From: Anaerolinea sp.
GTDB lineage: Bacteria; Chloroflexota; Anaerolineae; Anaerolineales; Anaerolineaceae
Direction of reading: 5' to 3'
Assembly: GCA_020216845.1 (NCBI GenBank)
Contig: JAIWNK010000140.1
Location: 1-10,000, forward strand
Length of the DNA stretch: 10,000 nucleotides
Shown here: positions 60-10,000 of the stretch, one piece after another
Position numbering within the stretch: position 1 is the first letter of the stretch
How the letters are laid out: each line of letters starts with the position of its first letter
The notes under the pieces: model-generated
Seen by the model: the letters and a program-made list of their open reading frames with translations, nothing else
What the model was told of the DNA's origin: nothing
Database searches by the model: none
Translations under genes and position numbers: made by a program

Positions 60-72
60 ACACAATCCTTAG

Positions 73-146
73 CGCCCCCGGGGAGGCTCGAACTCCCAAC
101 CTCTGGATTCGAAGTCCATCACTCTGTCCAATTGAGCTACGAGGGC
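73..146 (-). tRNA. tRNA-Arg (anticodon UCG)
   Basis: A complete 74-nt cloverleaf on the minus strand. The acceptor strands GCCCTCG (146-140) and CGGGGGC (80-74) pair fully, with one T-G wobble, and the discriminator base is G (73). The D-arm stem is GCTC/GAGT with the conserved GG in its loop. The anticodon loop is CTTCGAA, giving anticodon TCG, which reads the arginine codon CGA. The variable loop is 5 nt, and the T-arm is GGGAG-TTCGAGC-CTCCC. The first pair of the anticodon stem (A27-G43) is mismatched, a minor oddity. CCA is not encoded, so it must be added after transcription. The gene follows the membrane-protein gene by 25 bp and has its own likely promoter. Confidence 0.96.
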
Positions 147-171: not shown

Positions 172-1497
172 TCAAAACACCAAAGGCCCAGCCAACACAA
201 TCAGCAACGCCCAGGCCGGATAGATCCACCCCGCCAACGCCAGCGTGCGCTGCACCGCCGCCACCCACCCGGCGGCCCCAGCGCGCAGCATACGCACCTC
301 CATCAACCCCAGCAAAAACAAATTGATCGCATTCCAACCCAAAATCGTCACACGGTTGATCGTATACCCGCCCTGCAGCGTGCGATAAATCACCGCCGCC
401 ATCGCATGACTGCACACCAACAACACCAGGCCCACCAACACCATCACCCCAAGTCGCAAAGCAGTGCGCCACTGTTCCGAAATCTCCTCCTCATCCAGCG
501 GCGTCAGGCCCAAAATCTGCACCATCACTGCAAACAACAGCAAGTTATACACAATCAGCACATCGCGATCCTGAAACGGCTTGAGGAAATTGAACAACAT
601 GAACCCCAAATACAGCACCAACACCACAATGCTGAGCGGCAGCAAAACGCGCATCAACAATAGCACCAACCGCCCTAGCCCGCGTTCACTCACCTGCTCA
701 TCTGCCCGGCGGCTCGGATCATAATTGCCTGCCGCGGCCAGCAAAATAGCCACAGCCACCGCTGCGCCCATCAATCCCTGCGTCAACCAATAGGGCAAAT
801 TGACCGACAAAGCATCAAACAAGCCAAACGTCAACACCAGAAAGAGCATTGCGACAATTGAAAACACACCGCCGGCCACAAACACTTCCAAAGACTTGCG
901 CAAAAACGCAAACACAGTGCGGCTTTCACGTCCCACCATCGCAAAGCCAACGGCCGCCCAACTCAACAACGCCAGGTTAACCATCAGCAACGTTTCGTAA
1001 TTGCGGCTCTCCGAAAACCAGCGAAACCACCCCGTTTGAGATGCAAACCACGTTCCCAGGCCGCTGACCAGCACCAAAGCGCCCCCCAAGAACCCGGCCC
1101 GTCGGATGGATACCGTGCTGCGTTCGCTGACGCCGAAATAGATCATCAATCCCAGCCCAATCAGCGGCGGAATCAAAAACAGCCAGGGCTGCTGCCCGCG
1201 AAACGAAGTCCTTTGCAGCGCCGTATCGTTTGAGAAAACACCCGCCAGCACAGCCACTGTCAGGCCTATCGGCAGCAGCCATTTCCAATTCAGGCGCGGC
1301 TCAGACAGGCGCTTTGCCTCTTGTGCCAGGCGATGATGCCAGACCTGCCAGATCAATTGCTGCGGCTCAGCAACATACCACACTTCCAGCGCCTCAGCGA
1401 ACAGCAGTTCCTCCCCCTTACGTCGCGCCTGTTGATACAGCAATTCCAGCCCCTCAGCATCCCCGCGTCGTCCTCCAAGCTCAGCGTGATAGTCCAT
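172..1497 (-). CDS. Polytopic membrane protein of unknown function, DUF4153-like
   Basis: I do not recognise a specific function. The 441-residue product starts with a roughly 60-residue charged, probably cytoplasmic helical segment (Arg/Glu-rich, with several Trp). About eleven hydrophobic segments follow, to a C-terminus ending in GPLVF. The later part, with long Leu-rich helices and a short YTINRVTILGWN motif between the last helices, resembles DUF4153-type membrane proteins; this assignment comes from pattern memory only. The gene begins right after nuoN, whose TAG stop lies at 1516-1514, and is probably co-transcribed with it. An in-frame ATG at 1512 exists, but the strong GGAGG at 1508-1504 sits 6 nt before the ATG at 1497 (3 nt before another at 1500), so I prefer 1497. 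It is not a canonical complex I subunit. It could be an accessory or assembly factor, or an unrelated neighbour. Confidence 0.8.
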   Translation of the reverse strand: MDYHAELGGRRGDAEGLELLYQQARRKGEELLFAEALEVWYVAEPQQLIWQVWHHRLAQEAKRLSEPRLNWKWLLPIGLTVAVLAGVFSNDTALQRTSFRGQQPWLFLIPPLIGLGLMIYFGVSERSTVSIRRAGFLGGALVLVSGLGTWFASQTGWFRWFSESRNYETLLMVNLALLSWAAVGFAMVGRESRTVFAFLRKSLEVFVAGGVFSIVAMLFLVLTFGLFDALSVNLPYWLTQGLMGAAVAVAILLAAAGNYDPSRRADEQVSERGLGRLVLLLMRVLLPLSIVVLVLYLGFMLFNFLKPFQDRDVLIVYNLLLFAVMVQILGLTPLDEEEISEQWRTALRLGVMVLVGLVLLVCSHAMAAVIYRTLQGGYTINRVTILGWNAINLFLLGLMEVRMLRAGAAGWVAAVQRTLALAGWIYPAWALLIVLAGPLVF

Positions 1498-1500
1498 CAT

Positions 1501-1508
1501 CTCCCTCC
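1501..1508 (-). promoter_or_regulatory. Ribosome binding site deciding the start of the DUF4153-like gene
   Basis: GGAGGGAG on the minus strand directly precedes a double ATG (1500 and 1497). Spacing from its GGAGG core is 3 nt to the first ATG and 6 nt to the second. It lies downstream of the ATG at 1512, which has no comparable signal, so that upstream ATG is unlikely to be the start. Confidence 0.65.
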
Positions 1509-1513
1509 ACATC

Positions 1514-2959
1514 CTATGGCAACGCCAACACCGCCTGTCCCATCGCCTGCAACAACGGCCCCGGCAAAAAGCTCAACCCCACCACCAGAATGGCCAACAA
1601 CACAGCCAACAACGTCAACCAACGTTGCCCCTGAACCTGTGGCGTTCCAACAGCATAAAGCCGCAAAATCACCCGCAGCGAATAATACGCCGAGAACAAC
1701 GATGTCAGCACGCCCACCAACGCCAGGCCAATGTAACCGCCCTCCACCGCCACACGGAAGAGATAAAACTTGCCCCAAAAGCCAAGCGTGAGCGGAACGC
1801 CGGTATAAGAGAGCAAGAAAATTACCAACGGCACGGCCAACCAGGGATACCGAAAGCCCAAGCCAGCATACTCCTCAATCTCCAGGCCACGGCCCTCGCT
1901 CTGCTCCAGGGCCACCACCACCGCCCAAGCGCCAAAGCTCGTCAAGGCATAGGCCACGAGGTAGAACAGCATCGCCGAAACCGATTCGCCAGCCATCTTG
2001 CCCTGACCATAGGGCACAAACGCCATCAGCAAATAGCCGGCGCTTGCCACACCGGCATACGCCAATAAGCGTTTCATATTCGTCTGCGCCATTGCCAGCA
2101 AGTTGCCCACCACCATGCTCAACACCGCCAATGCCGCCACCAGAGGGGAAAGTTGTGCCGCCAGGGATGGAAAAGCCACCAAAAAGACGCGCAGCAAAGC
2201 CGCCAACCCTGCCGCCTTGACACCAACCGACATGAAGCCAGTTACCGGTGAAGGTGCGCCTTGATACACATCCGGTGACCACATATGGAACGGCACTGCC
2301 GCAACTTTGAAGGCAAACCCAACCAACAGCAAAGTCGCCCCAGCCACAAACAGCGGCACCGTTGCCGATACCCCGGCCATCGCCTCCACAATCCCTGGCA
2401 GCGAGGTATTGGCCGTTGCGCCAAAAATAAGCGCCACGCCATACAACAAGAAAGCCGAAGAGAACGTGCCCAACAAGAAATACTTCAGCGCCGCCTCTTC
2501 CGAATCCAAGCGCGGACGCGCAATACCGGTGAGAATATACAGCGGCAGCGAGAGCATCTCCAGCGCCAGGAAAACGATCAACAAGTCATTTGCCTGCGCC
2601 ATCAACATCATCCCCGCCACGCTGATCATCAATAGCGGATAATACTCACCATGCTCAATCCGCAAACGGCGCAAATAGTCAAACGCCAGTGCAATCGCCA
2701 CCAGACCGCTGCTCAGGAAAACAATCTCCAAAAAGACGGCAAAGCCATCGCGCACGACCATGTCCTGAAAAGCCATCAACGGCGAAAGGCCACGCTGCGC
2801 CAGGGCCAGGCCAAGCGCCAACGCCAAACCCGCCGCTGAAAGCCAGGCCGTCAACGACTTGCGTTCTTTTGGAATCCAGGCATCCACCAACAGCAACGCC
2901 AGCGCCCAAACGACTACAACCAAGGTTGGAAGGATCACAAACAGATCTTGTATGCTCAT
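1514..2959 (-). CDS. nuoN: NADH-quinone oxidoreductase subunit N (NuoN)
   Basis: This is the antiporter-like membrane subunit of complex I next to NuoK, one of three homologous proton-translocating modules. The 481-residue product matches the usual length and is almost entirely hydrophobic, with about 14 membrane segments. Key features are the Glu of the LALEMLSLPLY motif (E134), the Lys of FAFKVAAVPFHMWSPDVY (K218) and the Lys of GFMSVGVKAAG (K248). These correspond in the family to the TM5 Glu and the central proton-channel lysines. A GTG at 2965 is in frame, but GGAG at 2970-2967 is only 1 nt from it and 7 nt from the ATG at 2959, so the ATG is preferred. It lies 12 bp after nuoM and is the last recognisable complex I gene here. 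Confidence 0.96.
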   Translation of the reverse strand: MSIQDLFVILPTLVVVVWALALLLVDAWIPKERKSLTAWLSAAGLALALGLALAQRGLSPLMAFQDMVVRDGFAVFLEIVFLSSGLVAIALAFDYLRRLRIEHGEYYPLLMISVAGMMLMAQANDLLIVFLALEMLSLPLYILTGIARPRLDSEEAALKYFLLGTFSSAFLLYGVALIFGATANTSLPGIVEAMAGVSATVPLFVAGATLLLVGFAFKVAAVPFHMWSPDVYQGAPSPVTGFMSVGVKAAGLAALLRVFLVAFPSLAAQLSPLVAALAVLSMVVGNLLAMAQTNMKRLLAYAGVASAGYLLMAFVPYGQGKMAGESVSAMLFYLVAYALTSFGAWAVVVALEQSEGRGLEIEEYAGLGFRYPWLAVPLVIFLLSYTGVPLTLGFWGKFYLFRVAVEGGYIGLALVGVLTSLFSAYYSLRVILRLYAVGTPQVQGQRWLTLLAVLLAILVVGLSFLPGPLLQAMGQAVLALP

Positions 2960-2971
2960 TCTCACGCTCCG

Positions 2972-4459
2972 CTACGGCTGCGCCGCCAACATCAACAACC
3001 GTTCGACCGCCGGAGAAATCAGGTCAAAAATCGGCTGCGGATAAATGCCAATTGCCACCACCAGCACAACAATCGGCAGCAGGGTCAACACTTCGCGGAT
3101 ATTCAGATCCGCCAGGCTACGATTCTCCTCATGCACCAGCGGGCCGAGGAAAACCTTTTCGAACATTTTGAGCAGATAGGCCGCCGCCAGGATGACCCCC
3201 ACCGTGCCCAAACCAGCGAACCAAACGTTGCCAAGCGCCGAAGCATTGAACGCCCCGGCCAGAATATTGAATTCGCCCACAAAACCATTCAGCCCCGGCA
3301 CCGCCAGCGAAGAGAGCGTCACAATCAACGCCAAAGCGGATAACACGGGCAACACCTTCCACAACCCGCCAAAAGCCGCCAGTTCGCGGGTATGTCGTCG
3401 CTCGTACAACATGCCCACAAGCAGGAACAACGCCCCCGTGCTCAGGCCATGGTTGACCATCTGCAACACCGCTCCGCTGACCGCCTGTGGCGTGAGCGCA
3501 AAGATGCCCAGCATGACAAAGCCCAGGTGACTGACCGAGGAATAGGCGACCAGTTTCTTCCAGTCCTTTTGCGCAAAGGCCACCCCCGCGCCATACAAAA
3601 TTCCCACCACCGCCAGGCCGGCCATCCACGGGGCCAATTGTTGGCTAGCCTGCGGGAAGAGCGGCAAATTGAAGCGCAAAAAGCCATAGGCGCCCATCTT
3701 CAGCAACACACCGGCCAAAATTACCGAGCCCGCAGTTGGCGCTTCGACGTGCGCATCCGGCAGCCACGAATGCAATGGCCACAGCGGCACCTTGATGGCA
3801 AAGGCCAGCCCAAAAGCCAGAAAGAGCGCCGTTTGCGCACCCGCAAAAGTCGCCCGATTTTGGATCAGTGCCGGCAAATCAAAGCTACCCACCTGCAAAC
3901 CGACAAACAGAATGCCCACCAACAACAAGACGGAACCGACCATGGTGTAAAGGAAGAATTTAAGCGCCGCATAAATGCGCCGTTCGCCGCCCCAAATGGC
4001 AATCAGGAAAATCATCGGCACCAGCGTAAATTCCCAGAAGATATAAAACAGCACCAGGTCGAGCGCTAAAAAGACGCCATTCATGCCCACTTCCAACAAC
4101 AGGAACAGCGCCAAAAAGCCCTTCAAGCGCTCCCCCTGCACCGCCGTCCAGGTCGAAAGCAGCGCCAACGGCATCAGGAACGTCGTCAGCAACACCATCA
4201 ACAAACTGATGCCATCGGCCCCCAGGTGAAAGCGCACCGCCAGCCTGCCCAGGCGCAACCAGGGCAAGCTCAATTCAGTCAAGGCGCCCTGCCGGTCAAG
4301 CAACAAAGCCCACACGGCCAGGCCAAACGTCACCAAACTCGTCAACAGCGCCACCCAGCGCAACGAACGTTCATTGCGCCCATCCAACAAAAGAAGCAGC
4401 GCCAGCCCGAATAAGGGCAAGAACGTGATGAGCACCAACGGATGAAACCATGCATTCAC
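2972..4459 (-). CDS. nuoM: NADH-quinone oxidoreductase subunit M (NuoM)
   Basis: This is the middle antiporter-like pump of the complex I membrane arm. The 495-residue product has about 14 membrane helices. Visible hallmarks are FYIFWEFTLVPMI with the essential Glu (E143), IKVPLWPLHSWLPDAHVEAPT with the channel Lys (K223) and downstream His, and a late helix PGLNGFVGEFNILAG carrying the conserved Glu of the terminal channel. Starting at the ATG at 4498 would add a charged, cysteine-containing extension overlapping nuoL by 26 bp. AGGAGG (4473-4468) lies 8 nt before the GTG at 4459, and from there the protein reads MNAWFHPLVLITFLPL, a normal NuoM start. I therefore call GTG 4459. The gene lies 13 bp after the nuoL stop. 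Confidence 0.97.
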   Translation of the reverse strand: MNAWFHPLVLITFLPLFGLALLLLLDGRNERSLRWVALLTSLVTFGLAVWALLLDRQGALTELSLPWLRLGRLAVRFHLGADGISLLMVLLTTFLMPLALLSTWTAVQGERLKGFLALFLLLEVGMNGVFLALDLVLFYIFWEFTLVPMIFLIAIWGGERRIYAALKFFLYTMVGSVLLLVGILFVGLQVGSFDLPALIQNRATFAGAQTALFLAFGLAFAIKVPLWPLHSWLPDAHVEAPTAGSVILAGVLLKMGAYGFLRFNLPLFPQASQQLAPWMAGLAVVGILYGAGVAFAQKDWKKLVAYSSVSHLGFVMLGIFALTPQAVSGAVLQMVNHGLSTGALFLLVGMLYERRHTRELAAFGGLWKVLPVLSALALIVTLSSLAVPGLNGFVGEFNILAGAFNASALGNVWFAGLGTVGVILAAAYLLKMFEKVFLGPLVHEENRSLADLNIREVLTLLPIVVLVVAIGIYPQPIFDLISPAVERLLMLAAQP

Positions 4460-4467
4460 AGGCCGCT

Positions 4468-4473
4468 CCTCCT
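4468..4473 (-). promoter_or_regulatory. Ribosome binding site fixing a GTG start for nuoM
   Basis: AGGAGG on the minus strand shares its first base with the nuoL stop codon (TGA at 4475-4473) and is 8 nt upstream of the GTG at 4459. An upstream in-frame ATG at 4498 lies inside nuoL and would place this site within the coding sequence, so it is not the likely start. Confidence 0.75.
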
Positions 4474-6416
4474 CATCGCACCCAAAGCAAATAGGCAAAC
4501 ATTGCCACCACGCCCACCATCACCACCAGGGCATAAGAGCGCACCAGGCCATTTTGCAGTTTGCGCAGCCAGTTCGCCGAAAGCTGCGACCCCTGCCCCA
4601 AACCATCCCCCAGGCTGTTAATCAACCCAAGGTCCACCGGCCCTGCCAACACCTGCGCCAACCACCCCAAGGGACGCAACAACACCAGGCGGTAGAATTC
4701 ATCCACCCACCATTTCCGCTCAAAAGCACGGTAGAGCGGCCCAAGCGGACGTGCCAGCGCGTCCTGCTCCGTTGGAGCACGGCGGCCATACACCAACCAG
4801 GCCAGCCCCAGCCCCAGCAGCGCCACAGCCAAAGACCCAAGCGCCACGGCCCAAACAAAATGCCCTTCTTTGACGCCCACCAGGCTGTGTTCCAGCCAAT
4901 GTTCCAGGCTATGCAGCCCCGGCAAGTTCAACGCGCCGCCCAAGGCAGAGAACACTGCCAACACCACCAATGGCATCGTCACCAGCGGACGGCTCTCACC
5001 CGCATGGTGCGCCGCCTTGCTGCGCGGTTCACCAAAAAAGACCAAAATCAGTTGCCGGCCCATGTAAAAAGCTGTCAGGAACGCCGCCGCCAACAACAGA
5101 CCAAATACAACCGGGAAGCGTTCACTCGCTGCCACCAAGATCTCATCCTTGGAGAAGAAACCAGCCAGCGGCGCCACGCCCGCCAAAGCCAACGCCCCCA
5201 CCAGATACACCGCAAAAGTCAGCGGCATGCGCTTGCGCAGCCCGCCCATCTGACGCATATCCTGTGGATCAAAAGGATCGTGTCCCTCACCAGCGTGTTC
5301 ATGGCCATGTTCCAACCCAAGGATGACCGAGCCCGCCGCGAGGAAAAGCAGCGCCTTGAAGAACGCGTGAGTCACCAAGTGGAAAATCCCCGCCACCGCT
5401 GCGCCCATCCCCACAGCTGCCACCATAAAGCCCAACTGACTGATCGTGGAATAGGCCAGCACTTTCTTGATGTCATACTGCCCCAGCGCAATCGTCGCCG
5501 CAAACAGCGCCGTCAGGCCCCCTACCCAGGTCACTGCTGCCTGCGCCTGCGGCACGGGCAAGAACAGCGCCTGTGAACGCGCCACCAAATATACCCCCGC
5601 TGTCACCATCGTTGCCGCATGGATGAGCGCCGAAACCGGCGTTGGACCGGCCATCGCATCCGGCAGCCACACAAACAGCGGCAGCTGCGCCGATTTGCCG
5701 GTCACACCCAAAAGCATGAACAGCGTGATAGCCACCAACAAAGCAGGGGCTGCCTGCGCCGCCTGTGCAAAAACGCCATCAAAATCGAGGGTGCCAAACG
5801 CCCCAATCATCAAGAAAATGGCAATCAGCAAACCGAAATCGCCGACACGATTGACGATGAACGCCTTTTTTGCCGCTCGCGCATTGCCCAACCCGCCTTC
5901 ACCCTTCTCAAACCAAAAGCCAATCAGCAGGTAAGAGCACAGCCCCACGCCTTCCCAGCCAACAAACAGCACCAGGAAGTTGTTGGCGCTGACCAGCAGC
6001 AACATCGCCGCCACAAACAGATTCAGGTAGATGAAAAAACGGCGAAAGCGCTGCGGGTCACCGTTATGGCGCACATCGGCGTGCATATAACCGATGGAAT
6101 AGATGTGAATCAGTGTGCCAACGCCCGAGACGACCAACATCATCGTCACCGAAAGCGTGTCCACCCGGAAGCTCCAATCCACAGTCAGGCTTCCCAGGTT
6201 AAACCAGGTTGCCAGGCGGTAAATGCCGCCCTCCGGATGCTGCAAAAGCGCCAAAGCCAGCAACCCCGAAAGGACGAAAGACCCTCCCGCTGCCAGGCTT
6301 GCCACCGCGCCAATGCCCTTCTCGCCCAGCCGACGCCCCACCACCAGGTTGACCACAATCCCACCCAGCGGCAGCAGCACGGCCCAGACCACCCATGCAA
6401 GCTGTGTATCGCTCAT
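4473..6416 (-). CDS. nuoL: NADH-quinone oxidoreductase subunit L (NuoL)
   Basis: This is the distal antiporter-like pump of complex I and the largest membrane subunit. The 647-residue product has about 16 helices, including the long C-terminal region that forms the lateral helix and final anchor. Landmarks are FVGWEGVGLCSYLLIGFWFE with the essential Glu (E155), TGKSAQLPLFVWLPDAMAGPTPV with the channel Lys (K241), SALIHAATMVTAGVY with the conserved His (H266), and VLAYSTISQLGFM. A cytoplasmic loop around residues 368-380 is unusually rich in His (LEHGHEHAGEGHD) before the normal DMRQMGGL. An ATG at 6422 overlaps the nuoK stop as ATGA, but AAAGGA (6427-6422) is 5 nt before the ATG at 6416, which I prefer. 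Coupling to nuoK is likely either way. Confidence 0.97.
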   Translation of the reverse strand: MSDTQLAWVVWAVLLPLGGIVVNLVVGRRLGEKGIGAVASLAAGGSFVLSGLLALALLQHPEGGIYRLATWFNLGSLTVDWSFRVDTLSVTMMLVVSGVGTLIHIYSIGYMHADVRHNGDPQRFRRFFIYLNLFVAAMLLLVSANNFLVLFVGWEGVGLCSYLLIGFWFEKGEGGLGNARAAKKAFIVNRVGDFGLLIAIFLMIGAFGTLDFDGVFAQAAQAAPALLVAITLFMLLGVTGKSAQLPLFVWLPDAMAGPTPVSALIHAATMVTAGVYLVARSQALFLPVPQAQAAVTWVGGLTALFAATIALGQYDIKKVLAYSTISQLGFMVAAVGMGAAVAGIFHLVTHAFFKALLFLAAGSVILGLEHGHEHAGEGHDPFDPQDMRQMGGLRKRMPLTFAVYLVGALALAGVAPLAGFFSKDEILVAASERFPVVFGLLLAAAFLTAFYMGRQLILVFFGEPRSKAAHHAGESRPLVTMPLVVLAVFSALGGALNLPGLHSLEHWLEHSLVGVKEGHFVWAVALGSLAVALLGLGLAWLVYGRRAPTEQDALARPLGPLYRAFERKWWVDEFYRLVLLRPLGWLAQVLAGPVDLGLINSLGDGLGQGSQLSANWLRKLQNGLVRSYALVVMVGVVAMFAYLLWVR

Positions 6417-6418
6417 GC

Positions 6419-6718
6419 TCATCCTTTCAACGCACTCATCTGATCCACATCAATGCTGTGCTTGGTGCGGAAGATTGCCACCATCAACGCCAGCCCGACT
6501 GCCACTTCTGCTGCCGCCACCGTCATCACAAAGAAGACGAACAATTGGCTGTTAATCAGCTGATAGTAAGCCGCATACGCCACAAAGACCAGGTTGGCCG
6601 CATTGAACATCAACTCCAGCGACATGAAGATGACGATGGCATTGCGCCGAACCAAGACGCCCACCGCCCCCAGGGCAAATAAAATCACCGACAAAGCCAG
6701 ATAGTACGTAATCGTCAT
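6419..6718 (-). CDS. nuoK: NADH-quinone oxidoreductase subunit K (NuoK)
   Basis: This small three-helix membrane subunit is homologous to MrpC and forms part of the proton path between the quinone site and NuoN. At 99 residues it matches the family size. The two buried acidic residues are present: E35 in FMSLELMFNAANL and E71 in TVAAAEVAVGLALMVAIFR. An upstream ATG at 6736 would overlap nuoJ. GGAGG at 6727-6723 lies 4 nt before the ATG at 6718, giving the usual MTITYYLALSVILFALG N-terminus. The gene follows nuoJ by 14 bp, and its TGA stop overlaps the SD region and an alternative start codon of nuoL. Confidence 0.97.
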   Translation of the reverse strand: MTITYYLALSVILFALGAVGVLVRRNAIVIFMSLELMFNAANLVFVAYAAYYQLINSQLFVFFVMTVAAAEVAVGLALMVAIFRTKHSIDVDQMSALKG

Positions 6719-6732
6719 GGTTCCTCCATCCT

Positions 6733-7248
6733 TCACGATCGCTGTTTTTCTTGACGGGTAAGCAAAATGGCACCCACCAAGGCTGAAAGCAAAATGACCG
6801 ATGTAATCTCAAACGGCAGCTGATACTGTTCAAACAGCGCCAGCCCAACAGCTACCGGACTGCCAAAATCCGCTGTCAGCGCCGGCATGCCCGCCAGATT
6901 GCTGCCACGATAGGCCACATAGAGCCCCACCTCCGCCAGAAAAACCAGCGCCACCAACGCCGCCACCCAACGCTGCCGCCCTGAGCGTGCCGTATCCGGC
7001 AGCTTTTCGGCGCCCAGCAACATGATGACGAACAGGAACAGAATCATGATCGCTCCAGCATAGACGGTGATCTGCGTCAGGGCAATAAACGGTGCGCCCA
7101 AGATGAGGTACAGCAGCGCAACGGTCGCAAAATTCAACACCAGGAACAACGCCGCATACACCGCATTTCGGCTGAACAACATCCCAAGCGCAGAACCGAC
7201 CACTACCAACGCCAAAACCGCAAATAAAATCACACTCCCCAAAGCCAT
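6733..7248 (-). CDS. nuoJ: NADH-quinone oxidoreductase subunit J (NuoJ)
   Basis: This is the membrane subunit of complex I beside NuoK and NuoA; its third helix takes part in coupling through a pi-bulge. The 171-residue product has five hydrophobic helices. It contains the family signature NAVYAALFLVLNFATVALLY followed by GAPFIALTQITVYAGAIMIL and FVIMLLG, and the last helix lies before a short basic tail (TRQEKQRS). The ATG at 7248 is preceded by AGGAGG (7258-7253) at 4 nt. That site overlaps the nuoI stop codon, and the two genes are 8 bp apart, so translation is probably coupled. Confidence 0.97.
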   Translation of the reverse strand: MALGSVILFAVLALVVVGSALGMLFSRNAVYAALFLVLNFATVALLYLILGAPFIALTQITVYAGAIMILFLFVIMLLGAEKLPDTARSGRQRWVAALVALVFLAEVGLYVAYRGSNLAGMPALTADFGSPVAVGLALFEQYQLPFEITSVILLSALVGAILLTRQEKQRS

Positions 7249-7256
7249 CTTCCCTC

Positions 7257-7745
7257 CTATTCTGGGTCTTTCATCACCGGCACCGCCCGGTCAAACAGGC
7301 CCGGCTCGGTCACCTGTGGGGTTGGTTTCCCGCCCTCTGGGACAGGCTCAATCAACATCTCTTTGGTGTAAATGGAAGCAGAACGCTCCGTGAACGCCAG
7401 TTCATAATCATGCCCCAGCACAATCGCCTCGGTGGGACAGGCATCTTCGCAAAAGCCACAGTAAATGCACCGCATCAGGTTGATTTCATACGTGCTGGCA
7501 TAACGCTCGCCGGGGGAATAGCGTTCAGCATCCGTGTTTTGTGCCGCCTCAACAAAGATTGCATCCGCCGGACAAGCCGCCGCACACAAAGCACAGCCAA
7601 TGCACTTCTCCAGGCCATTGTCATACCGCTTGAGCACATGGCGGCCCTTGAAGCGCTGCCGCACAGGGCGTTTTTGCTCCGGATATTGAATCGTCACCGG
7701 CTTATCGAACATCTCACGAAACGTCGTCAACAGACCCTTAAGCAT
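7257..7745 (-). CDS. nuoI: NADH-quinone oxidoreductase subunit I (NuoI), 2x[4Fe-4S]
   Basis: This ferredoxin-like subunit carries clusters N6a and N6b and passes electrons from NuoG towards N2 and quinone at the foot of the peripheral arm. The 162-residue product has an N-terminal amphipathic helix (MLKGLLTTFREMF) and two complete CxxCxxCxxxCP motifs: CIGCALCAAACP (C48, C51, C54, C58) and CIYCGFCEDACP (C93, C96, C99, C103). Between them is the characteristic DAERYSPGERYASTYEINLMR stretch. The C-terminal tail of about 35 residues is Pro-rich and probably packs on neighbouring subunits. The frame stays open upstream to 7835 inside nuoH, but GGAGG at 7754-7750, 4 nt before the ATG at 7745, fixes the start. 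It lies 14 bp after nuoH. Confidence 0.97.
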   Translation of the reverse strand: MLKGLLTTFREMFDKPVTIQYPEQKRPVRQRFKGRHVLKRYDNGLEKCIGCALCAAACPADAIFVEAAQNTDAERYSPGERYASTYEINLMRCIYCGFCEDACPTEAIVLGHDYELAFTERSASIYTKEMLIEPVPEGGKPTPQVTEPGLFDRAVPVMKDPE

Positions 7746-7759
7746 TGCGCCTCCTTTTT

Positions 7760-8764
7760 CTATGCACTGGTCAGCACAAGCACCACTGCCGTCACCATCA
7801 CATTCAACAGCGAAACCGGCAAAAGCACCTTCCAACCCAGCGCCATCAGCTTATCATAGCGAATGCGCGGCAAGGTCGCGCGCACCCAAATCATCACGAA
7901 CAACCAAACAAACACCTTGGCGAACAGCCACACCGGCCCAAGCCAGGGCAATTGCGCCACAAACGGCCCCTGATAGCCACCCAAGAAAAGCGATGCGCCA
8001 ATCATTGCCACCGCAATCATTTTGATGTATTCCGCCATGAAAAACAGAGCGAACTTCATGCCCGAATATTCGGTGTGATAACCAGCGGTCAGCTCCTGCT
8101 CAGCCTCGGGCATATCAAACGGTGCCCGGTTGACCTCGGCCAGGCTGGCAACAAAGTAAATGAGAAAACCCGCAGGCTGAATGAACACGTACCACAGCCC
8201 CTGCTGCGCTGCAACAATGTCGCTCATGCTCAACGATCCCGCCAACATCACCGGCCCAATGAAAGCCAGCCCCAGCGCCAGCTCATAGCTAACCATCTGT
8301 GCCGTTGCGCGCAACCCGCCCATCGCCGCATACTTGTTGTTCGAAGACCAGCCCGCCAGCGTGATGCCGTACACTGAAATCGAGGTAACTGCCATGATGT
8401 ACAACACCGCCACATTGATATCGGTGATGCGCAGTGCAATCTCACGCCCACCGATCGTCACACTCGTGCCCCAGGGGATCACCGCTGTGACAATCAGAGC
8501 CGGAATGACCGTGATAATCGGCGCAAGGACGAAAATGCGCTTATCCGCCCCCGCAGGAATGAGCTCCTCTTTGAAGATCAGCTTAATCCCATCCGCCACC
8601 GGCTGCAACAACCCAAACGGGCCAGCCCGGTTGGGGCCAATGCGTGCCTGCATACGCGCCAACACCTTGCGCTCCAGCAAAGTTGTGTAAGCAAACCCAC
8701 CGGTCATCACCAGAATCAGGATGATGCCCTTAATCAGCCATTCCCAAAATAAAGCAGCCGTCAT
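7760..8764 (-). CDS. nuoH: NADH-quinone oxidoreductase subunit H (NuoH)
   Basis: This membrane subunit joins the peripheral arm to the membrane arm and helps form the quinone-binding chamber and the entrance to the proton-coupling path. The 334-residue product has 8 or 9 helices and all family signatures: LLERKVLARMQARIGPNRAG and GLLQPVADGIKLIFKE near the N-terminus, AEVNRAPFDMPEAEQELTAG with YHTEYSGMKFALFFMAEY in the middle, and WVRATLPRIRYDKLM near the end. The ATG at 8764 overlaps the TGA of the upstream endonuclease gene as ATGA. Its SD, AAGGAG at 8775-8770 (5 nt spacing), is part of the endonuclease coding sequence. The usual upstream neighbour, nuoG or another peripheral-arm gene, is absent from this position. 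Confidence 0.98.
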   Translation of the reverse strand: MTAALFWEWLIKGIILILVMTGGFAYTTLLERKVLARMQARIGPNRAGPFGLLQPVADGIKLIFKEELIPAGADKRIFVLAPIITVIPALIVTAVIPWGTSVTIGGREIALRITDINVAVLYIMAVTSISVYGITLAGWSSNNKYAAMGGLRATAQMVSYELALGLAFIGPVMLAGSLSMSDIVAAQQGLWYVFIQPAGFLIYFVASLAEVNRAPFDMPEAEQELTAGYHTEYSGMKFALFFMAEYIKMIAVAMIGASLFLGGYQGPFVAQLPWLGPVWLFAKVFVWLFVMIWVRATLPRIRYDKLMALGWKVLLPVSLLNVMVTAVVLVLTSA

Positions 8765-9705
8765 AGTTTCTCCTTAAACCAATACCGTTTTGGGACATAT
8801 TGCAACACGATATCTTCTAAGACTTCTAAATTGTGTAAGTTAATAAAATAATGACAATGCTCCACCAAACGTTGAAAATCTCGCTTTCTTGCCAGCCAAC
8901 CGCCTCCATCAACAAAATTAATAAAAACGCGCTTCTCTCCATAGCGGCTATTACTCCGTTCTACGCGTTCATAAGCCGCAAGCATATCGCGCGCTTTGGT
9001 AGATTGCCCACTGCTAGTTGTCTCCTGAAAAGAGCTCATCACAATTACCCAAGGATCATCTAAGCTTGGAATGGCAAAATCTATATTAGTGTCTACCATG
9101 CGGGATTTTCCTTTCTGATACGGAATGCCATAACGCAGCGTTACACCCTTGAGAACCTCCTCAATCCTAGCCTCAATTCGATATCCCTTAAGTCCAGCGT
9201 AAGTACCTATCAAAGATTTTTTATAACGCACCTGTCTAGCAATTGCCGAACTGGTACAAATTTCGGAGTAGTTCAGCATTTCCAAATAATAACGCGGAAT
9301 ATAAGCCTGCAAAGTAACATCGTGTTTGCCACTTAACAACAGACGAGCAATTATCTGGGCGAATTGAGCATCGCGCCGTAATTGTGTCTTGATGCGGTCA
9401 ATCCCCCACTCTACATCAAATTCTCCTTCCACCCAACCAATTCGGCGCAATAAAGTCACAATACGCAAGAACTTTTCTTCCGAAAGCTCAATATCTTTTA
9501 GAACAACATCCAATCCCAATTGATTTTGCACCAAGAAACTCTGTAATGTTTCAACACTTAACCCCAATGAAGATTGAGCATCCAGCCAATTTCCAACGGC
9601 CAACAAAGCCGCTACTTGAGCATCGATCTCCTCCTCCAAAGATTCATCAACCAAGAAAACCGTTGTTGTTTGCCAAGCTTGTTGAAATGATAGTTTAGGA
9701 ATCAT
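8761..9705 (-). CDS. Probable type II restriction endonuclease, DpnII/MboI-like
   Basis: A 314-residue soluble protein, presumably cutting unmodified DNA. The N-terminal half (about 1-180) is helical and unassigned. The C-terminal half resembles the DpnII/MboI PD-(D/E)XK core: ID (D209) in NIDFAIP, a buried strand VIVMSSF (220-226), TTSSGQSTKAR (229-239), VFINFVDGGGW (260-270), comparable to the VWITDGQGW of MboI, and a final INLHNLEVLEDI like the NLYTL region. At the place where the family normally carries the catalytic Glu there is Met or Val, so activity is uncertain. GGAG (9716-9713) 7 nt before the ATG at 9705 fixes the start; an ATG at 9786 would overlap the methyltransferase too far. 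It overlaps that gene by 11 bp and nuoH by 4 bp. Base composition is AT-richer than nuo, which suggests acquisition. The family assignment is from memory of motifs, so moderate. Confidence 0.7.
   Translation of the reverse strand: MIPKLSFQQAWQTTTVFLVDESLEEEIDAQVAALLAVGNWLDAQSSLGLSVETLQSFLVQNQLGLDVVLKDIELSEEKFLRIVTLLRRIGWVEGEFDVEWGIDRIKTQLRRDAQFAQIIARLLLSGKHDVTLQAYIPRYYLEMLNYSEICTSSAIARQVRYKKSLIGTYAGLKGYRIEARIEEVLKGVTLRYGIPYQKGKSRMVDTNIDFAIPSLDDPWVIVMSSFQETTSSGQSTKARDMLAAYERVERSNSRYGEKRVFINFVDGGGWLARKRDFQRLVEHCHYFINLHNLEVLEDIVLQYVPKRYWFKEKL
8770..8775 (-). promoter_or_regulatory. nuoH ribosome binding site inside the endonuclease 3' end
   Basis: AAGGAG on the minus strand encodes the Lys-Glu of the endonuclease C-terminus (KEKL) and stands 5 nt before the nuoH ATG. 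The endonuclease stop and nuoH start overlap as ATGA, an arrangement typical of translational coupling by terminating ribosomes. Confidence 0.7.
8830..8857 (-). promoter_or_regulatory. Weak candidate internal promoter upstream of nuoH
   Basis: On the minus strand TTGTCA (8857-8852) and CACAAT (8835-8830) are separated by 16 bp, about 65 bp upstream of nuoH and inside the endonuclease gene. The -35 is good, but the -10 matches only four of six positions. In AT-rich coding sequence such matches arise easily by chance. It is listed because nuoH-nuoN may need a transcription source close to the inserted cassette. Confidence 0.2.
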
Positions 9706-10000
9706 GTCGAATCTCCAGTTTTGCGGCTTTAAGGGCCTTTCCCCAATTAGGAAACACTTCTTGAAACGCTTGCAAATCATATGCACTTAATCGCTCCACA
9801 TCCTGTGGGGTTGGCAAACGGCCCAATTCCTGCGCTATTCGTCTTAAATCTTCCTGCAATGCTCGCTTAGAATAAATTGAGCGTGGACGAGGCAAAGAAT
9901 GACGCTCAACATAGCCCTGTTTTTGCACATCTATCAGCTTTTTGCGCATAATTTCAACATATTGAGCGTCCAAATCAATGGCCACATAGCGTCGTCCCAA
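9695..10000 (-). CDS. DNA methyltransferase, C-terminal part (cut by window edge), with HNH-repeat-like tail
   Basis: Only the last 101 codons are visible; the gene continues beyond position 10000, and the first codon seen (TTG) is an internal Leu, not a start. The fragment begins LGRRYVAIDLDAQYVEIMRKK, the stretch that follows the SAM-binding FxGxG motif at the C-terminal end of permuted (beta-type) N6-adenine or N4-cytosine methyltransferases. After a basic linker, residues 47-96 (ALQEDLRRIAQELGRLPTP, then FPNWGKALKAAKLE) resemble the homing-endonuclease-associated (HNH) repeat, a small DNA-binding module. The gene ends in TAA at 9697-9695 and overlaps the endonuclease start by 11 bp, the close M-then-R arrangement of a restriction-modification system. 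Its role would be to protect host DNA at the recognition site. The exact specificity cannot be read from this part. Confidence 0.8.
   Translation of the reverse strand: MGRRYVAIDLDAQYVEIMRKKLIDVQKQGYVERHSLPRPRSIYSKRALQEDLRRIAQELGRLPTPQDVERLSAYDLQAFQEVFPNWGKALKAAKLEIRHDS
9713..9716 (-). promoter_or_regulatory. Ribosome binding site deciding the endonuclease start
   Basis: GGAG on the minus strand, within the last codons of the methyltransferase gene, lies 7 nt upstream of the ATG at 9705. It supports a start giving MIPKLSFQQAW rather than the in-frame ATG at 9786, and implies that endonuclease translation depends on ribosomes reading through the methyltransferase end. Confidence 0.55.

Follow-up and report, generated by a model that had tools for sequence, protein, structure and literature searches.

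A restriction-modification gene pair between nuoG and nuoH in the complex I operon of an Anaerolinea genome

We analyzed a stretch of 10,000 nucleotides of Anaerolinea sp. DNA (GCA_020216845.1, JAIWNK010000140.1; the window, contig C14 below), in which a methyltransferase gene and a putative restriction endonuclease gene precede nuoH, a gene of respiratory complex I. We consider it very probable that these two genes, here called the cassette, are a mobile Type II-like restriction-modification pair that has entered a nuoA-N operon, complete in other respects, at the boundary of nuoG and nuoH. An initial annotation of the window had already suggested that a mobile module was captured inside the nuo operon, and this suggestion is supported by the gene order across the upstream nuoA-G genes, the gene overlaps, the deviating base composition, the empty sites in relatives, and the other loci of the cassette family.

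Position of the cassette in the nuo operon

Both cassette genes lie on the strand of the nuo genes directly before nuoH, as open reading frames (ORFs) at 9695-10000 (-) and ending at 8761 (-), and the stop codon of the endonuclease gene shares the sequence ATGA with the nuoH start (table 1); the initial annotation had read both features correctly. It had also placed the cassette where nuoG or another peripheral-arm gene would be expected, either splitting the operon or replacing its upstream part. When the sequence was extended past position 10000 onto contig C15, nuoG, F, E, D, C, B, and A were found in this order on the same strand, each with a Pfam match, and the TGA stop codon of nuoG lay 8 nt short of the methyltransferase ATG, overlapping an alternative GTG start. 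The place of nuoG has thus not been taken, and because nuoA-G are present on C15, the operon was interrupted and not replaced; splitting stood, and replacement was ruled out. The combined order was nuoA-G, methyltransferase-endonuclease, nuoH-N, with just two genes separating nuoG from nuoH.

We infer that C15 continues C14 from the methyltransferase reading frame, which crosses the cut between the two contigs (an open frame of 401 aa in the 1,800 bases that surround the cut), and from an alignment of the joined protein with a homologue (L072) over residues 44-561, which showed 56% identity and was gap-free at the cut.

The empty site was examined in relatives. A NuoH match was found in 55 of the 61 genomes searched, and the 29 loci read were the best-scoring ones among the 54 matching genomes apart from that of the window. 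In 28 of them nuoG was directly upstream of nuoH, with a spacing of -4 to 210 bp (the nuoG end of one, L036, contains N), and the 29th nuoG-nuoH locus was broken by N; none of the 28 relatives carried the cassette at this junction. The arrangement is therefore that of an operon insertion, a same-strand pair lying between two genes that are linked in function and stand side by side in relatives. In addition, NuoG of 26 of 27 relatives (L028 and L036, with N runs, being omitted from this comparison) extended past the NuoG end of the window genome by about 8 residues or more, and thus the insertion may have clipped NuoG; the short NuoG of L024, a relative without the cassette, speaks otherwise.

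Base composition also set the cassette apart. The G+C content of both cassette genes was 0.42 (0.36-0.38 at third codon positions, GC3), compared with 0.50-0.60 (GC3 0.59-0.74) for the 14 nuo genes, with approximate starts used for four of the latter (nuoB, I, K, and M). The shift falls at the nuoH junction, where the initial annotation had noted a lower composition and had correctly counted 18 G+C in 8821-8880.

Table 1. Features of the window (contig C14) and of the adjoining end of contig C15
Feature	Position	Strand	Remark
nuoH, complex I subunit H	7760..8764	-	first gene of the downstream half (nuoH-N) of the split operon
nuoI, J, K, L, M, N	1514..7748	-	remainder of the downstream half; nuoI start approximate; nuoJ-N recognized by Pfam matches and distinguished by order and length
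Restriction endonuclease gene (putative)	8761..9705	-	314 aa
Methyltransferase gene, 3' part	9695..10000	-	last 101 codons and stop; includes PF18780 HNH_repeat
Methyltransferase gene, remaining part	C15:1-1374 or C15:1-1386		to ATG start (1374, L009) or GTG start (1386)
Overlap of methyltransferase end and endonuclease start	9695..9705	-	11 nt
ATGA overlap	8761..8764	-	endonuclease stop TGA; nuoH ATG at 8764-8762
AAGGAG	8770..8775	-	likely nuoH ribosome-binding site, within the last endonuclease codons (tail FKEKL)
Membrane-type ORF	172-1512		sub-threshold DUF6056 match
tRNA-Arg (anticodon TCG)	72-146	-	close to the start of the window; downstream of nuoN and of the membrane-type ORF

The two cassette enzymes

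The methyltransferase comprises 559 aa counted from the ATG. In beta-class amino-methyltransferases, the DPPY motif is N-terminal to the GxG motif that binds S-adenosylmethionine. The same order was found in the catalytic half of the cassette protein, where DPPY precedes a GTGTT motif, and PF01555 matched above its cut-off (137.5 bits, C15:4-600), which assigns the enzyme to this class; we take it to be of the adenine type. The nearest known enzyme for the catalytic half was M.MboIIA (1g60; profile positions 239-482), in a comparison that used homologues from other genomes, or a profile built on these. Unlike M.MboIIA, the cassette methyltransferase has a preceding half without DPPY and a C-terminal HNH_repeat. 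This N-terminal part resembles the middle of the catalytic half (residues 66-179 cross-match single-domain relatives), and the protein appears as a fused double, in which a DPPY-less, methyltransferase-like half with a conserved C-x2-C segment is followed by the catalytic half. The fusion may recall METTL3-METTL14-like heterodimeric adenine methyltransferases drawn into one chain, with weak fold matches in this direction. The part encoded on C15 retains 126 of the 133 columns that are invariant in 19 homologues.

The endonuclease probably starts at the ATG at 9705 and not at the GTG at 9786 given in the ORF list, since its homologues start near the ATG. Among 3411 candidates, 425 proteins (its own entry included) matched it at E<=1e-5, and it agrees with 23 homologues in 80 of their 81 invariant columns; thus, this ORF is more than a chance ORF. 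Neither a stop nor a frameshift was found inside either cassette gene. The likeness of the endonuclease to the DpnII family (PF04556) is a weak match of 21 bits, against a curated cut-off of 23, and is confined to the C-terminal third (residues 214-321); the DpnII family name is given at source to several homologues, which carry precomputed PF04556, and a BanI family match was well under its cut-off. The structure model (predicted local distance difference test, pLDDT, 85.8) gave BsoBI and BstEII as its best fold matches, with template modeling scores (TM-scores) of 0.39-0.42 and an identity of only 9-12%. These matches to solved enzymes stood above those to unrelated proteins and point to a restriction endonuclease fold of the PD-(D/E)XK type; D209, E228, and K237 are invariant, with the textbook PD-(D/E)XK spacing not evident. 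A search of the PDB with the single endonuclease sequence gave no match, and one with its profile gave two poor matches to unrelated proteins (E 0.15 and 0.57). PADLOC returned weak matches only (best E 0.012), the plasmid collection returned none, and one match of 31.8% was present in a Streptococcus phage record. The role of the protein as an endonuclease is therefore putative, based on weak family matches, the source names of its homologues, and its predicted fold. The adjacency of methyltransferase and endonuclease genes is that of a Type II restriction-modification system.

Other loci of the cassette family and alternative explanations

Relatives of the endonuclease were detected in 9 of 101 genomes, including its own, and a two-motif scan yielded 41 endonuclease loci in named genomes. 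A methyltransferase match accompanied 38 of these 41, and nuoG or nuoH accompanied none. From their record titles, 35 of the loci belong to Chloroflexota; the titles of the remaining six name Thermodesulfovibrionales, Nitrospira, Bacteroidia, Proteobacteria, Chloroherpetonaceae, and Gammaproteobacteria. Two M42-peptidase genes are separated by the cassette in Bellilinea caldifistulae (L075), and the arrangement in Anaerolinea thermolimosa (L078) is identical. For comparison, 29 further loci were read, from the genomes scoring best among 59 that had a match: the M42 pair was adjacent and on one strand in 28, among them the locus from the genome of the window itself, and the 29th shows the second gene in part only. 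In Bellilinea, the upstream M42 protein could be aligned to those of most relatives right up to its final residues, which also speaks against clipping by an insertion. Two variants were also observed. A distant branch (L102 and L104-L106) has the reversed order, with the endonuclease first and then a match to the catalytic methyltransferase half. In another genome of the same taxonomic order as that of the window (L056/L064, G056 contig 59), an endonuclease copy with one internal stop precedes a gene of the DNA polymerase III delta' type.

A family-wide preference for operons looked attractive in the hand-read list of neighbors, but the control gave no significant excess. With strands taken from one gene-calling script, neighbors were co-directional upstream in 19 of 26 loci, downstream in 22 of 29, and on both sides in 14 of 26, compared with 185 of 272 control pairs (68%; p = 0.37 upstream and 0.24 downstream). 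The 29 loci were the window and 28 of the 41; the 13 left out (L095, L097, L099-L102, L104-L107, and L109-L111) were edge-cut, had no methyltransferase match, or were of the distant type, with the exception of L100, which would have qualified. By hand, the script strands looked wrong upstream of L085, L086, and L108 and downstream of L081; corrected counts would be 22/26 upstream and 23/29 downstream, with the control pairs not likewise corrected.

This background level of co-direction bears on the possibility that transcription of the cassette starts at a promoter of its own and is separate from that of nuo, its position in the operon being incidental, which we regard as unlikely. Promoter-like matches in 8400-10000, within and around the cassette, numbered 6 against 2.5 expected, two of them on the coding strand, and terminator-like matches in the nuoG-end region numbered 5 against 2.5 expected, with one weak match at the nuoG end itself. 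Both scans were uninformative as such; the promoter-like matches and the weak match at the nuoG end are what such separate transcription would draw on. On the other hand, no coding-strand promoter-like match was found ahead of the methyltransferase start in a scan of C15:1-2000, and there is nearly no spacer at either end of the cassette.

An old vertical arrangement, in which the cassette has long resided in the nuo operon of this lineage and may have a role in complex I or in its regulation instead of in defense, seems to us quite improbable. The overlapping junctions do appear settled, and the M42 site shared by Bellilinea and Anaerolinea thermolimosa indicates that such insertions can persist across genera; however, the cassette is absent from all 28 relatives in which nuoG and nuoH meet, the composition still deviates, and the endonuclease has kept 80 of its 81 family-invariant positions.

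An assembly or binning artefact, in which the nuo genes were wrongly connected to a cassette from elsewhere or from another organism, is the least probable of the three and very hard to sustain. The metagenome-type assembly (1.83 Mb in 168 contigs) is 75.73% complete, and five of the seven contigs checked (C4, C12, C13, C14, and C15, but not C16 and C116) are exactly 10,000 bases long, which suggests that longer contigs were cut, perhaps before binning; gene fragments at the ends of such contigs may likewise be products of cutting. The deviating G+C content of the cassette, and the fact that the protein listing shows no full-length methyltransferase for this genome, would also fit an artefact. 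Against it, each junction lies within a single contig (nuoG-methyltransferase on C15 and endonuclease-nuoH on C14) and fits the order of one operon, both junctions are gene overlaps or near-overlaps, and the methyltransferase gene runs exactly through the contig cut.

Several observations weigh against the proposed insertion. No genome of the same genus was among the relatives listed, no mobility gene was seen by eye among the ORFs of C14 and C15, and a comparison of 140-160 bases per edge revealed a single 8-base match between the cassette edges in place of flanking repeats. NCBIfam gave no match for the endonuclease and no family for the methyltransferase, the latter queried as its 101-aa end only, and the TM-scores of the endonuclease fold were low. 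The co-direction of neighbors was at background level for the family, and the weak terminator-like match at the nuoG end, if real, counts against read-through. Finally, the gene order depends on a deduced contig join, the protein database holds the methyltransferase only as a 458-aa fragment (its length from the ATG) from a 10,000-base contig, and the endonuclease protein is recorded on two contigs, the longer of 83,536 bases.

Expression of the cassette and its significance

Judged from the gene overlaps, the inserted cassette is probably co-transcribed with the nuo operon, and it would then be read from the nuo promoter within a single polycistronic message. The methyltransferase would be made first and the endonuclease next by translational coupling, an order that would suit safe expression. 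Because the likely ribosome-binding site of nuoH sits inside the endonuclease gene, translation of nuoH would in its turn be coupled to that of the endonuclease. The pair would protect the cell from unmethylated DNA that enters it and, as is the case for other restriction-modification systems, may counter its own loss by killing cells that lose it; the cassette may in this sense be the "selfish" module that the initial annotation suggested. Since both the nuoH start codon and its likely ribosome-binding site lie within the end of the endonuclease gene, we tentatively raise the somewhat doubtful idea that the cassette is a translationally locked-in hostage-taker, in which complex I selects for a readable endonuclease and the endonuclease for the methyltransferase. 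If so, mutations halting endonuclease translation would lower the expression of nuoH and all later genes.

Two additional complex I-like clusters were observed in the same genome, one on C4 (L006) with matches to nuoA, H, J, K, L, and M and weakly to N, and one on C116 (L007) with matches to nuoB, C, D, H, I, and L and also to M and N. These clusters could cushion polar effects on complex I.

The mobile forms of restriction-modification systems were reportedly surveyed by Furuta et al. in 2010. In the accessible parts of two reports (PMC4615327, PMC10273834), PabI-family restriction-modification pairs are described in glutamate-synthase and histidine operons of Helicobacter and Campylobacter, on the strand of the operon, with short segments of 62 bp and 4 bp replaced, and the authors propose that upkeep of the operon may be enforced by post-segregational killing. 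As far as these parts go, the nuo cassette resembles the PabI-family pairs in being a restriction-modification pair on the strand of the operon between functionally linked genes, and it differs from them in enzyme family (PabI being a DNA glycosylase), hosts, and operons. On operon insertion, PMC4615327 also refers to Fukuda et al. 2008 (PMC2614495), which, in the part available, concerns mcrBC inserted into restriction-modification complexes and not into host operons. Since operon insertion of such pairs has, on these sources, already been published (PMC4615327, PMC10273834), the nuo case is a further instance, unusual mainly for the operon concerned and for its tight junctions; no earlier report of a restriction-modification pair in a nuo operon was found in the open-access literature searched.

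The nuo cassette is a well-resolved example of a defense module within an operon of core energy metabolism, for which relatives show the empty site. A further insertion of this cassette family lies between the M42-peptidase genes of Bellilinea, and there the genome of the window itself supplies the empty site. The nuo case makes testable the proposal that restriction-modification pairs can tie themselves to important operons.
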